Source: Neorhizobium sp. NCHU2750
Lineage (GTDB): Bacteria; Pseudomonadota; Alphaproteobacteria; Rhizobiales; Rhizobiaceae
Assembly: GCF_003597675.1 (NCBI RefSeq)
Contig: NZ_CP030827.1
Coordinates: 2,480,001 to 2,544,000, forward strand
Direction of reading: 5' to 3'
Length of the DNA: 64,000 bases
Below are positions 29,675-62,311 of this stretch, piece after piece. A program made the translations under genes and the position numbers. Below the pieces are notes generated by a model. It was not told the origin of the DNA. It did not search any database and saw nothing but the letters and a program-made list of their open reading frames with translations. Position 1 is the stretch's first letter, and every line of letters starts with the position of its first letter.

Positions 29675-30916
29675 ATGAAGAAGAACGTGCTCATCATCGG
29701 CGCCGGCGGCGTCGCGCAGGTCGTCGCGCATAAATGCGCCCAGAACAACGATGTCCTCGGCGACATCCATATCGCCTCGCGCACCAAGGCCAAGTGCGAT
29801 GCCATCATCGCCTCGGTGAACGAGAAGAAGGCGATGAAACAGCCGGGCGTGCTCGAAGCCCATGCGCTCGATGCGCTGGATATCGAGGCCACCAAGGCGC
29901 TGATCGAAAAGACCGGCAGCCAGATCGTCATCAATGTCGGCACCGCGTTTTTGAACATGTCGGTTCTGCGCGCCTGCATGGATACCGGCGTCGCTTACAT
30001 CGACACGGCGATCCACGAAGAGCCGAACAAGATCTGCGAGACCCCGCCGTGGTACGGTAACTACGAGTGGAAGCGCGCTGCCGAATGCGCCGAAAAGGGC
30101 ATCACCGCCATCCTCGGCGCCGGCTTCGATCCGGGCGTCGTCAACGCCTATGCGCGTCTCGCTAAGGACGAATATCTCGACAAGGTCACCGACGTCGATA
30201 TCGTCGACATCAATGCCGGCAGCCACGGCAAGTATTTTGCCACCAATTTCGACCCGGAAATCAACTTCCGCGAATTCACGGGCGTGGTTTACTCGTGGCA
30301 GGGCGGCGAATGGAACGTCAACAAGATGTTCGAAATCGGCAAGGACTACGACCTGCCGGTCGTCGGCACCCGCCGCGCCTATCTCTGCGGCCATGACGAA
30401 GTACATTCGCTGGCGAAAAACATGGACGGCGCCGACGTGCGCTTCTGGATGGGCTTTGGCGATCACTATATCAACGTCTTCACCGTCCTGAAGTCGATCG
30501 GCCTTCTCTCCGAACAGCCGGTCAAGCTTGCCGACGGTTCCGAAGTCGTGCCGCTCAAGGTGGTCAAGGCCTGCCTGCCCGACCCGTCGTCGCTGGCCCC
30601 GGAATACGAAGGCAGGACCTGCATCGGCGACTTCGTCAAGGGTGTGAAGGACGGCAAGGAACGCACGGTGTTCATCTACAACGTCGCCGACCACAAGGAA
30701 GCCTTCAACGAAGTGGGCTCCCAGGGCATTTCCTACACCGCAGGCGTTCCGCCTGTCGCAGCAGCGATGCTCGTCGCCACCGGCGAATGGGACGTCAAGA
30801 AGATGGCCAATGTCGAGGAACTGGCCCCGCGCCCGTTCCTCAACATCCTCAACAAGATCGGCCTGCAGACCTGCATCCGCGACGAAAACGGCGAACGCGA
30901 ACTGCATTTCGACTGA
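29675..30916 (+). CDS. Carboxynorspermidine / carboxyspermidine dehydrogenase (saccharopine dehydrogenase family)
   Basis: Condenses aspartate semialdehyde with a diamine and reduces the imine with NAD(P)H, the first step before NspC. The 413-residue protein has a Rossmann start KNVLIIGAGGVAQVVAHKCA, GAGFDPGVVNAYAR in the middle and a C-terminal saccharopine-dehydrogenase fold. It follows nspC and is flanked downstream by a strong terminator, so nspC and this gene form one unit. The ornithine/lysine decarboxylase that often neighbours them is not in the window. Confidence 0.92.
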   Translation: MKKNVLIIGAGGVAQVVAHKCAQNNDVLGDIHIASRTKAKCDAIIASVNEKKAMKQPGVLEAHALDALDIEATKALIEKTGSQIVINVGTAFLNMSVLRACMDTGVAYIDTAIHEEPNKICETPPWYGNYEWKRAAECAEKGITAILGAGFDPGVVNAYARLAKDEYLDKVTDVDIVDINAGSHGKYFATNFDPEINFREFTGVVYSWQGGEWNVNKMFEIGKDYDLPVVGTRRAYLCGHDEVHSLAKNMDGADVRFWMGFGDHYINVFTVLKSIGLLSEQPVKLADGSEVVPLKVVKACLPDPSSLAPEYEGRTCIGDFVKGVKDGKERTVFIYNVADHKEAFNEVGSQGISYTAGVPPVAAAMLVATGEWDVKKMANVEELAPRPFLNILNKIGLQTCIRDENGERELHFD

Positions 30917-30948
30917 GATGCGGCGATTGCCGGATGACTGAGATGCCG

Positions 30949-30977
30949 AAAGGCCCGCGAGCGATCGCGGGCCTTTT
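30949..30977 (+). terminator. Intrinsic terminator after the polyamine genes
   Basis: AAAGGCCCGCGA, loop GCGA, TCGCGGGCCTTT, then a further T. A perfect 12-bp stem 33 bases after the stop codon, ending in a run of four T. Confidence 0.87.
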
Positions 30978-30993
30978 CTGCATCCTTTCGACG

Positions 30994-31076
30994 TCATACT
31001 CGGGCTTGTCCCGAGGATCTGCTGTCGTCTCGGTTCTGGTGATGTGGTCAGGTCCTCGGGACAAGCCAGAGGATGA
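30994..31076. repeat. Inverted doublet of a CTCGGGCTTGTCCCGAG palindrome
   Basis: A 27-base unit at 30994-31020, containing CTCGGGCTTGTCCCGAG, recurs inverted at 31050-31076 with about four mismatches. Each unit is itself palindromic. The family is different from the one bounding the GIY-YIG unit 86 bases further on, but has the same head-to-head organisation. Confidence 0.75.
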
Positions 31077-31161
31077 CTATCAACACCGCATCCTCGTCAC
31101 GCCCCCATCATAGCCGCCTCTGGCACAACCGCTCGCTTGTGGCACCACGCCAGCACCAACT

Positions 31162-31619
31162 TCCCTCATTCCTGTGCCTGTCACAGGAATCCAGCCGCCG
31201 TGCGTCCGCACGGCGAGAGGACTCCACACCTTCAAATCGAATGGAGATAGTTGGAAATGTCATCCCACTCCGGATTCATCTGCTCGATCAGATTGAGCTT
31301 CCACTTGCGAGGCCATTTCTTCATCGTCTTCTCGCGGGTTATGGCATCGACGAGAAGATCGTATTCCTCGAACCAGACGAGTGTCTTCACTCCGTATTTA
31401 GAGGTAAACCCTGGGGTGAGCTCATTCTGATGTTCGAATAGGCGGCCAGCCAGATCACGCGTCACGCCGATATACAGCGTGCCGTTTCTCTTCGAAGCCA
31501 GAATGTAAACGTATCCCTTCATGGTTGAAGGATGACAGCTTACTGCGCCTGTTCAAGAGCCTTTCGCGCCGCAGACGCGGCGCTGCTGGATTCCTGTGAC
31601 AAGCACAGGAATGAGGGAG
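31162..31619. mobile_element. Repeat-bounded GIY-YIG unit (candidate mobile element)
   Basis: A 458-base unit with 33-base inverted ends at 31162-31194 and 31587-31619 that differ by one base. Each end contains ATTCCTGTG-N5-CACAGGAAT, a perfect 9-bp palindrome, and is followed inward by a GC-rich hairpin: CGCCGTGCG/CGCACGGCG at 31196-31215, and GCGCCGC/GCGGCGC at 31567-31584. Only the GIY-YIG gene lies between. A gene-less pair of the same ends occurs at 62193-62311. No target-site duplication is obvious. This organisation resembles REP doublets around RAYT transposases; mobility here is inferred. Confidence 0.6.
31232..31522 (-). CDS. Small GIY-YIG nuclease-domain protein
   Basis: A 96-residue single-domain GIY-YIG protein. 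The signature strands are GYVYILASKRNGTLYIGVT, followed by the Arg in DLAGRLFEHQ and the acidic WFEEYDLLVDAITREKTMKKW; the C-terminus ILEQMNPEWDD-type region (IEQMNPEWDDISN) is typical of the small bacterial group related to UPF0213/COG2827. Such domains cut DNA at a metal-dependent single active site. It is the only gene between two inverted palindromic repeat ends, which suggests that the protein acts on or moves those repeats, but this is inference. Confidence 0.88.
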   Translation of the reverse strand: MKGYVYILASKRNGTLYIGVTRDLAGRLFEHQNELTPGFTSKYGVKTLVWFEEYDLLVDAITREKTMKKWPRKWKLNLIEQMNPEWDDISNYLHSI

Positions 31620-31707
31620 AATGGGGCTCCGCTCGTCACCCCATCTGGCCTTTGCAATTCGCATATAGAAATGCGCCAATGCACCGGCTGAGCGCCGCCC
31701 ACGCCCC

Positions 31708-33369
31708 TCACACCCGCGCGCAAAACACGTCGATCGCGTCCAGCATCACAACACCGTTTTCAAGCTTCGACACATAGCCCGGCATGTCCACCGGCATCAC
31801 CGATCCGAAGCGGGCCGGAATGGTGAACTTCTGCGTCTCGCGCGTCATGTTGAAGACGAACAGCAGTCTCTCGCCGCCCTTCTCGCGCAGGAAGGCGAGC
31901 AGGTCCTGGTTGGTCTCGACGAAGGTCATGTCGCCATCGACGAGCGAGGGGTGGCTCTTGCGGAACTGGAGCGTCGCCCGGTAATGCGCCAGAACCGAAT
32001 CCGAAAGCCTCTCCTGCGCATCGACGGCGCGCGCGGCATGTTCGGGCGGCACCGGCAGCCATGTCGACAAACCGTCGGTGAATCCGGCATGCGGGGCCTT
32101 TGCCTCCCACACCATCGGCGTGCGGCATCCGTCGCGGCCCTTGAAGGCCGGCCAGAAGCGGATGCCATAGGGGTCGCGCAGGTCCTCGAAGGAAAGTTCC
32201 GCTTCCGTCAGCCCCAGTTCCTCGCCCTGATAGAGGCAGATCGAGCCGCGCAGCGTGGCGATGATCGAGGCGGAAAGCTTCGCCACCCGGTCCTGCTCGG
32301 CCGGATCCTCGATGAAGCGCGTCACGTGGCGGATCACGTCATGGTTGGAAAACGCCCAGCACACCCAGCCGTTCACCACCGTGTCCAGCACGGTCTGCAT
32401 CACCTTGCGGATATAGGAGGCGGAAAAGGCCGGCCCGAGAAGGTCGAACGTGTAGCACATATGCAGCTTGTCATTGCCGGTCGTATAGAGCGCCAGCGTG
32501 TTGAGCGAGCGCGGCCCGTCGCCCACTTCACCGACCGAAGCACGATCGTCATAGCTGTCGAGCAGAGCGCGAAAACGCTTCAGGAAGCCGATATTTTCCG
32601 GCTGCGTCTTGTCATAGAGATGGTTCTGCATCGAATACGGATTGGTATCCGTCTCCATGCCCGCGCCGTCGGTATCATAGACCATCGGCGGGTTGTTCCG
32701 AAGCTGCTTGTCGTGGAAATAGTAGTTCACCGTATCGAGCCGGAACCCGTCGACGCCGCGCTCCAGCCAGAACTTCACGGTATCCAGCATCGCATCCTGA
32801 ACCTCCGGATTGTGGAAGTTGAGGTCCGGCTGCGAAATCAGGAAATTGTGCATGTAATATTGCTTGCGCACGCCGTCCCATTCCCAGCCCGGCCCGCCGA
32901 AGATGGAGAGCCAGTTGGTCGGCGCCGTGCCATCCGGCTTGGGATCGGCCCAGACGAACCAGTCGGCCTTGGGATTGGTGCGGCTGGTGCGGCTTTCGAC
33001 AAACCATGGATGCCGGTCGGACGTGTGCGAGATCACCTGGTCGATGATGACTTTCAGGCCCAGCCGGTGCGCTTCCTCCATCATCTCGTCGAAATCGGCA
33101 AGCGTGCCGAACATCGGGTCAACATTGCAATAGTCGGAGACGTCATAGCCCATGTCGGCCATCGGAGAGGTGAAGAAGGGCGACAGCCAGATCGCGTCGA
33201 CGCCGAGCGAGGCGACATGCGCGAGACGCTGGGTGATCCCTTTGATATCGCCCAGCCCGTCACCGGTCGTGTCCTGGAAGGAGCGCGGATAGATCTGGTA
33301 GATCACCGCGCCGCGCCACCAGTCCGCACCAGCCTTACCCGTCGACGCCACCTGCATTTCCGTCGCCAT
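31708..33369 (-). CDS. aglA: Alpha-glucosidase, GH13 family
   Basis: Hydrolyses alpha-glucosidic bonds of sucrose, maltose, trehalose-like or related sugars in the cytoplasm. The 553-residue protein is a full GH13 barrel: IYQIYPRSFQDTTGDGLGDI, nucleophile Asp in DGFRLDTVNYY, acid Glu in SVGEVGDG, and the FSNHDVIRH transition-state region. The sequence resembles AglA of the rhizobial aglEFGAK locus, but here no transporter genes adjoin it. ATG 33369 has AGGAG nine bases upstream; the frame opens earlier. The symbol rests on family resemblance. Confidence 0.88.
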   Translation of the reverse strand: MATEMQVASTGKAGADWWRGAVIYQIYPRSFQDTTGDGLGDIKGITQRLAHVASLGVDAIWLSPFFTSPMADMGYDVSDYCNVDPMFGTLADFDEMMEEAHRLGLKVIIDQVISHTSDRHPWFVESRTSRTNPKADWFVWADPKPDGTAPTNWLSIFGGPGWEWDGVRKQYYMHNFLISQPDLNFHNPEVQDAMLDTVKFWLERGVDGFRLDTVNYYFHDKQLRNNPPMVYDTDGAGMETDTNPYSMQNHLYDKTQPENIGFLKRFRALLDSYDDRASVGEVGDGPRSLNTLALYTTGNDKLHMCYTFDLLGPAFSASYIRKVMQTVLDTVVNGWVCWAFSNHDVIRHVTRFIEDPAEQDRVAKLSASIIATLRGSICLYQGEELGLTEAELSFEDLRDPYGIRFWPAFKGRDGCRTPMVWEAKAPHAGFTDGLSTWLPVPPEHAARAVDAQERLSDSVLAHYRATLQFRKSHPSLVDGDMTFVETNQDLLAFLREKGGERLLFVFNMTRETQKFTIPARFGSVMPVDMPGYVSKLENGVVMLDAIDVFCARV

Positions 33370-62192: not shown

Positions 62193-62311
62193 TCCCTCAT
62201 TCCTGTGCTTGTCACAGGAATCCAGTCACGCGAAGTCCTTCGCGTGAAAAGACTCTTTTGCGCCGCAGACGCGACGCTGCTGGATTCCTGTGACAAGCAC
62301 AGGAATGAGGG
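62193..62311. mobile_element. Gene-less inverted doublet related to the GIY-YIG unit (MITE- or REPIN-like)
   Basis: A 119-base element. Ends at 62193-62225 and 62280-62311 are the same 32-33-base sequence, inverted, as the ends of the GIY-YIG unit at 31162-31619. Inside each is a hairpin: TCACGCGAA/TTCGCGTGA at 62226-62247 and GCGCCGC/GCGACGC at 62260-62277. The two halves meet at the palindrome AAAAGACTCTTTT (62247-62259). The whole can fold into one long cruciform or RNA hairpin. It sits between bdhA and xdhA and may alter operon expression. Confidence 0.75.

Follow-up and report, generated by a model that had tools for sequence, protein, structure and literature searches.

The stretch of DNA analysed here (the window) comprises 64,000 nucleotides from Neorhizobium sp. 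NCHU2750 (genome G000) and contains, between positions 31163 and 31617, a minimal unit of 455 bp made of two REPs, two inner hairpins and one gene (Table 1). The two 33-bp ends differ by a single mismatch, located in the loop, and each consists of a 9-bp stem (ATTCCTGTG/CACAGGAAT) and a 5-nt loop; as single-stranded DNA, each end is calculated to adopt a fold more stable than those of 200 out of 200 shuffled sequences (z = -5.47 and -4.53). The original prediction had described inverted ends of 33 bases with one difference and a 9-bp palindrome, an inner GC hairpin at both ends and nothing but a 96-residue GIY-YIG gene in between, and all of this was recovered. That the ends are genuine repeats was confirmed as well, but it had been overlooked that they are of a known REP type and that a second dimer lies just outside the unit. 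This dimer is independent of the unit, since relatives show each without the other.

Table 1. Features of the GIY-YIG unit and REP dimers of the window
Feature	Positions	Strand	Remarks
Left terminal REP, CCTC-headed	31163-31195	+	Head outward, CCAGC tail on the gene side; 9-bp stem at 31168-31190
Left inner GC hairpin, 8-bp stem	31196-31215	+	Position is that of the spacer stem-loops of gene-less dimers
GIY-YIG nuclease gene, 96 aa, single domain	31232-31522	-	ORF and Pfam match
Right inner GC hairpin, 7-bp stem	31566-31583	-	Folding
Right terminal REP	31585-31617	-	Inverted copy of the left REP; stem at 31590-31612
Neighbouring REP dimer, other CGTC type (CTCGGGCTTGTCCCGAG)	30992-31078		Just left of the unit
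Gene-less dimer of the unit's REP	62194-62311		Pattern, folding and comparison with relatives; candidate non-autonomous derivative of the unit

A BLAST search of the unit against its own genome gave 29 matches, one of them full and 28 restricted to the ends (two of the latter are the unit's own ends matching each other). With a pattern consisting of the 30-bp core of the end, and up to two mismatches allowed, 13 copies were found in the 6.35 Mb of the host genome, and the reversed control pattern gave 0 occurrences there at the same tolerance; given these 29 matches and the empty control, the repeat ends are not a product of chance. Most host copies of the unit's REP are found in gene-less dimers of about 118 bp, five of which, arranged as tail-inward pairs, occur in the stretches inspected, together with single copies (e.g. 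at locus L008). The layout of these dimers is REP, hairpin, short spacer, hairpin, REP, the distance between the spacer stem-loops being 13-14 bp in the two host dimers measured. The GIY-YIG unit is built of the same two halves, the gene replacing the short spacer, and by eye a dimer resembles the unit minus an interior excised between the inner hairpins. As single-stranded DNA, the gene-less dimer listed in Table 1 is predicted to close into a single extended hairpin (-57 kcal/mol, z = -16.3).

Repeats of this kind belong to the CGTC group, one of the two REP superfamilies, which is characterized, in the passages of the 2013 paper by Di Nocera, De Gregorio and Rocco (PMC3733652) used here, by a CGTC, TGTC or CCTC head, a stem of 8-9 bp starting with AT, a short loop and a CCA tail. 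The same passages place these REPs mainly in Alphaproteobacteria, list the dRS3 repeats of Neisseria as CGTC-1, report a dedicated enzyme to be absent and deem transposase neighbours only fortuitous; a word search of the paper for the term 'GIY-YIG', as far as its text was available, gave 0 occurrences. The unit's REP has a CCTC head, the ATTCCTGTG stem, a 5-nt loop and a CCAGC tail, and it recurs in the genome, in most cases as one half of an inverted dimer whose spacer is structured, so that it falls within the CGTC superfamily on both counts. From its sequence, it is probably of the family CGTC-3 of Agrobacterium. Head, stem, 5-nt loop, CCA tail and inverted dimers with two spacer stem-loops are shared, but the stem-loops of the CGTC-3 dimers of Agrobacterium are 20-23 bp apart (PMC3733652, same passages), a larger distance than in the two host dimers. 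The other difference is that the published CGTC REPs come without a dedicated enzyme, whereas here a matching GIY-YIG gene lies between the repeats.

The 96-aa product of this gene matches the Pfam GIY-YIG domain over residues 2-77 with 54.3 bits (cut-off 22.6), and neither Pfam nor NCBIfam reveals a second domain; the sole NCBIfam match, to group I intron endonucleases, stays below its cut-off (23 bits versus 56). Residues Y6, Y17, G19, R27, H31, E64 and N83 are 98-100% conserved among 286 intact homologues of 75-140 aa, out of 299 proteins taken. These residues presumably correspond to those of I-TevI, and the protein, having the domain with the catalytic Tyr, Arg and Glu, is a member of the GIY-YIG superfamily. 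Its AlphaFold2 model has a mean pLDDT of 93, and by sequence it is only weakly similar to PDB entries (1YWL and 1ZG2, both UPF0213 proteins, E = 0.16-0.19). The gene is under strong purifying selection, the median dN/dS within the clade of the window protein (clade A, see below) being 0.075 for the 59 usable pairs out of the 91 that 14 sequences form, the other pairs being saturated or too close. Small UvrC-like endonucleases of COG2827 measure 96-123 aa in Caulobacter, where three copies are reported and where they were proposed as repair enzymes, one of them with an SOS box, and the passages of that study used here (PMC1839093) make no mention of repeats beside the genes. The unit's protein, COG2827 and UPF0213 probably form one family at large. 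In the plasmid collection, the nearest matches are those of Rhizobium, in keeping with a probable place of the host in the Rhizobiaceae.

Homologues of the protein were found in 34 of 57 genomes of the genus, at 43 places, which by their shared flanks form 14 site clusters and are not independent loci. With clades and REP types drawn post hoc, on loci that had already been inspected, and with an outlier locus at 40% identity kept apart, type-1 REPs accompany clade A (at least 74% identity to the window protein) in 13 of 15 loci, type-2 REPs clade B in 14 of 16 and type-3 REPs clade C in 9 of 11. This amounts to 36 of the 37 typed loci; the exception is L021, a clade A locus called type 2, and at five loci of these clades no REP was found. 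In terms of site clusters, clade A goes with type 1 in six, clade B with type 2 in five and clade C with type 3 in one. In two of the 14 clusters the species differ, some having clade A and type-1 REPs and others clade B and type-2 REPs, and in one genome (G027) all three clades are present, each with its own REP type; the type of REP thus tracks the gene and not the host or the site. Clade C with its REPs occupies one site in nine species, and much of the inheritance is therefore vertical.

The number of REP copies in a genome follows the same rule. The presence of a clade is associated with the copy number of its own REP type (A with type 1, p = 3.5e-5; B with type 2, p = 5.9e-5; C with type 3, p = 0.0056; one-sided Mann-Whitney tests over 57 genomes, species being treated as independent), and none of the six mismatched combinations gave an association in these genomes (p = 0.078-0.85). 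In these counts, type 1 was allowed up to two mismatches, types 2 and 3 had to be exact, and clade A includes a decayed copy in G010. The match between clades and repeats suggests that the nuclease reads its own REP type. Against a strict link, type-1 REPs persist in 20 of the 43 genomes without clade A. The decayed clade A copy of G010 lies between type-1 REPs and thus illustrates one route to genomes having the REPs but lacking the gene.

It had been predicted that the ends would not be equally frequent beside unrelated genes, and this is borne out in the genus: among the copies listed, all 11 adjacent tail-inward REP pairs with a spacing of 200-1500 bp enclose a GIY-YIG gene (one of the 11 hits is truncated), and in the other 92 tail-inward pairs the starts are under 200 bp from each other, which leaves no room for the gene. 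This analysis used 135, 96 and 67 REP rows among the matches listed for the three patterns, rows without a neighbour on the same contig being omitted. A repeated home of the units, with differing clades and REP types, is the spacer between sufB and sufC (genus clade C loci L038, L040-L043, L121-L123 and L126, L056 of Shinella, L045 of Azospirillum lipoferum 4B, and L090 and L094). In other species of the genus this spacer holds other sequences of 266-320 bp or is short, 77-80 bp. At the sufB-sufC spacer of one genome (G016:C4:76380-76528, in L430), two exact type-3 REPs enclose what, by eye, resembles the short vestige of a unit of clade C type, apparently a further copy that decayed while its REPs remained.

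A wider survey covered 172 homologue loci, i.e. 43 from the genus, 13 from a plasmid collection and 116 from the class, hairpins being required to have an NGTC or NCTC head. The class loci were taken in order of E-value, with seven rows skipped and the worst-matching rows left out, and because of this they lean to better matches. At 133 of the 172 loci, one or both flanks of the gene have a REP-like hairpin no further than about 300 bp away, compared with 3.4 in shuffled flanks, and tail-inward hairpins are present on both sides at 78, compared with 0 in shuffles; 39 loci have none within 300 bp. A usual lack of the ends among homologues, which would have spoken against the original prediction, is thus not what is seen. 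The hairpins cluster at the gene, being found in 263 of 433 gene-touching blocks of 300 bp versus 27 of 479 blocks situated 700 bp or more from it (loci L014-L262; L048 and L051, two plasmid loci from other phyla, are part of this count and of the survey). At the 78 loci with a tail-inward pair, the left and right REPs of a locus have a similarity of 0.917, versus 0.624 across loci, and the right REP starts at a median of 15 nt past the stop codon.

A second score, the best inverted match between the two flanks, assumes no REP shape and was computed for the 293 of 299 loci whose flanks measure 150 bp or more. Values of at least 34 were obtained for 28 of 43 genus loci, 9 of 13 plasmid loci, 73 of 115 class loci, 29 of the 47 from the phylum sample and 36 of the 75 further ones, as against 38 of 879 mispaired flanks. 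The further loci stem from the best 80 matches of a scan with a protein of Planktothrix (a cyanobacterium); five of them are labelled alpha-, beta- or gammaproteobacterial (L316, L318, L322, L324 and L326), four of which pass, and 32 of 70 pass when the five are set aside. The wider sampling comprised 20 stretches, from genomes outside the class only. By their titles, passing further loci come from Chloroflexi, a cyanobacterium, a planctomycete, Zixibacteria, Nitrospirae, Clostridia, Bacteroidetes, Terriglobia, Armatimonadetes and others, many of them being MAGs whose taxon labels may err. The repeats at the wider-phylum loci read (T)GTCATTCTGAG...GAAGAATCTC and similar, and those flanking the gene of Neisseria gonorrhoeae (L044) look like what we take to be dRS3. 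Up to 10 GIY-YIG matches were counted in one genome (G179).

Over 77 loci, protein and REP distances are correlated only weakly (Mantel rho = 0.204, beyond all 999 permutations, the maximum of which was 0.183), perhaps because REP similarity saturates between genera. Some close homologues have no REPs (L016, and L052 and L053 of Rhizobium). The latter two, on plasmids of Rhizobium tumorigenes (L052) and Rhizobium sp. K1/93 (L053), are clade A-like genes of 82-83% identity with the same two neighbours; they may be intact orphan genes whose repeats were lost. In Planktothrix agardhii, the GIY-YIG gene (L048:2489-2773), with GTCATTCTGAG-type repeats nearby, sits between a type IIL restriction enzyme (MmeI) and the DISARM gene drmA, surroundings which look like a defence island.

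The presence and absence of these elements at orthologous sites, which the original prediction had named as a check, could be followed at several places. At the site of the window, compared in five genomes, G000 contains the unit together with the other REP dimer and G041 just the unit, and only the other dimer is present in G003, G024 and G056. A second site, compared in eight genomes, contains the unit in G007 and G034, a decayed unit in G010 and one REP half in G011, and no unit or REP was seen there in G009, G045, G052 and G054; the state of G011 can be read as a loss via direct-repeat recombination or as a pre-insertion state. The site of the gene-less dimer at 62194, compared in 16 genomes, has the dimer in G000, G003, G010, G024 and G040, two dimers in G025, a single hairpin in G029, G043 and G055, and none in G014, G030, G038, G039, G041, G048 and G056. 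Outside the genus, the sufB-sufC unit of A. lipoferum 4B is missing from the other three of four Azospirillum plasmids compared (A. ramasamyi, A. oryzae and B510), and filled and empty alleles both exist on Azospirillum and on Sphingobium plasmids. Between species, then, both the unit and the dimer are present at some orthologous sites and absent from others, as is expected of mobile elements.

Among the sites compared, none is a clean recent insertion whose junctions are exact. The spacers differ also outside the unit, both at the locus of the window and at sufB-sufC as well as in Sphingobium, and on the Azospirillum and Sphingobium plasmids they do so too strongly for exact junctions. At the collapsed sites (G029, G043 and G055), the single hairpin corresponds to the outer arms of both REPs, and likewise in Sphingobium (TomTYG64 and TomTYG74; loci L406 and L408); such hairpins may result from slippage between palindrome arms or represent an excision footprint. 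Direct repeats of 8-12 bp flank 4 of 175 REP pairs (190 before removal of duplicates; control rate 0.0014), all beside further REPs, and 2 of 78 units, and a target-duplication signal at one dimer locus is weak (own mean of 3.0 versus 2.5 when mispaired). From the 78 units, the 175 REP pairs and this one dimer locus, no rule of target duplication emerges. At three places (L244:449-1018, L169:374-499 and L201:530-924), units or dimers stand in tandem with neighbouring REPs, with the same 8-12 bp spacer in between, as if arrival beside an existing REP had copied about 12 bp.

The arrangement recalls several known systems. With the RAYT REPtrons and REPINs, it has in common a small enzyme gene between inverted REPs and many gene-less dimers. 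In RAYT REPtrons, the types of enzyme match the types of repeat, and here too an enzyme gene has inverted REP flanks whose types are matched to enzyme clades. But the REPtron enzyme is RAYT, an HUH tyrosine transposase of the IS200/IS605 kind, whereas GIY-YIG is an unrelated superfamily with another chemistry, and REPtron repeats are GTAG-tagged whereas those of the unit are CCTC/CGTC-headed and of another superfamily. Membership of the unit in the RAYT family is ruled out, there being no HUH gene within it. Classical insertion sequences combine a transposase and terminal inverted repeats with a target duplication of fixed length; the unit has inverted ends, and the duplications looked for gave the mixed picture described above. 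The catalytic domain is that of GIY-YIG homing endonucleases of the I-TevI type, which have an intron or intein host or a fused NUMOD domain, and of Penelope-type elements; unlike in these, neither a group I intron nor a NUMOD DNA-binding domain or reverse transcriptase was found, the protein being a single domain of 96 aa. A group I intron at the unit is rejected, since no Rfam family scores above its gathering score in 30850-31750, the matches having E-values of 0.33-0.97. The repair nucleases UvrC and Cho have a Cys-rich, UvrB-binding or Cho C-terminal domain, from which the 96-aa protein is free.

The simplest reading is probably that of a REPtron-like system with another enzyme. The GIY-YIG family would be the partner enzyme of the CGTC-type REPs, and its co-occurrence with them makes it the best candidate for spreading them. 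We give a probability of roughly 0.6 to the unit at 31163-31617 being autonomous, belonging to a broad class of minimal elements made of a GIY-YIG gene and inverted REPs, and multiplying gene-less dimers in trans. Binding, cutting and mobilisation by the nuclease could proceed as follows. A REP or a dimer would fold as a hairpin or cruciform when single-stranded, e.g. on the lagging strand, as the computed folds allow; the nuclease would bind the matching hairpin and cleave the DNA close to, or directly at, its outer CGTC/GACG head. Cleavage by GIY-YIG enzymes is hydrolytic and leaves no covalent bond between enzyme and DNA, and we know of no strand-joining activity of a stand-alone GIY-YIG domain. 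Joining would therefore be left to the host, whose ligase and repair synthesis may copy the hairpin unit into a cut made elsewhere. The gene may then decay or go missing while the REPs persist, as in the decayed copy of G010 and in the REP-bearing genomes found without the gene, and the gene-less dimers would be non-autonomous derivatives, multiplied in trans by the nuclease of their own type. Of the RAYT-like role which had been attributed to the protein, the association is thus well supported; mobilisation itself is putative, and homing or REP processing would fit much of the evidence likewise.

One alternative is that the gene of a free-standing homing endonuclease invades REP dimers, which the enzyme would cut between their halves, and is copied into them by homologous repair over the REP arms, the REPs being its target and being spread otherwise. 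The position of the gene between the two inner hairpins is as expected for an insertion into a dimer, REP specificity would be expected of a homing enzyme that cuts REPs, the sub-cut-off NCBIfam match points to intron endonucleases, and GIY-YIG is a family of homing endonucleases, as the consulted part of PMC1564403 has it. We nevertheless regard this as unlikely. At the orthologous sites in G003, G024 and G056 there is no type-1 dimer to invade, and at the window locus it is therefore the whole unit with its REPs that is present or absent; second domains and intron families, sought with Pfam, NCBIfam and Rfam, did not appear; and the spread of the REPs would be left unexplained, despite the link between clades and REP copy number.

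Another possibility, which we consider improbable, is that of a host nuclease for REP processing or repair, i.e. a UvrC/Cho-like backup or a cruciform nuclease, with the adjoining REPs serving for control or being relics and nothing being mobilised. Strong purifying selection is in keeping with such a role, and so is the fact that clade C has been passed on vertically at a single site, as is the proposal of repair functions for the Caulobacter homologues, one with its SOS box, in the passages used of PMC1839093. But the patchy distribution, the up to 10 matches in G179 and the decayed copy are untypical of a housekeeping enzyme, the existence of one gene clade per REP type would go unexplained, and a two-sided adjacency of REPs in fixed orientation is needless for this function.

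It is quite unlikely that the gene is a mere passenger of recombination hot spots, a cassette exchanged between core genes where REPs gather. The varying contents of the sufB-sufC spacer, according to species, speak for exchange at this place; however, the other long spacers have, by eye, no inverted REPs, the gene enclosed in the long REP pairs listed is GIY-YIG each time, and clade-specific REP types at shared sites would not be accounted for. Finally, chance or a selection of examples, the ends being unrelated intergenic palindromes, has next to no likelihood: REPs are common in these genomes, but the shuffled flanks, the comparison of near and far blocks and the mispaired flanks lead to its rejection.

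Returning to the reading of an autonomous unit that multiplies REP dimers, the repeats and the protein family were each already known, and it is their pairing that appears to be new. In the open-access literature, the scope of our search, no description of a GIY-YIG/REP pairing was found, in line with the remark of the original prediction that it knew of no established description of such a system; two papers citing the 2013 study of CGTC REPs (PMC12306157 and PMC6006769) gave no 'GIY' in a word search of the text available. The unit, although it seems to work like a RAYT REPtron, differs from one both in its enzyme and in its repeat. At even odds, in our estimate, stand-alone GIY-YIG nucleases drive an unrecognised class of transposition, in which CGTC/GTCAT-headed repeats are spread in trans and the genes themselves in cis, via host repair, from Rhizobiaceae to Neisseria, Chloroflexota, Cyanobacteria, Bacteroidota and candidate phyla; this would account for one of the two great REP superfamilies.

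A matched nuclease makes the spread of CGTC REPs testable, with a protein of 96 aa, a substrate of 118 bp and three specificity classes in one genus. Genes of this sort have so far been filed as 'UvrC-like', 'excinuclease' or 'GIY-YIG nuclease family'. If the enzyme moves the REPs, there would be, across many phyla, mobile DNA that depends on a nuclease acting by hydrolysis and not on a transposase. It would also become possible to assign many uncharacterised GIY-YIG genes systematically to the repeats they go with.
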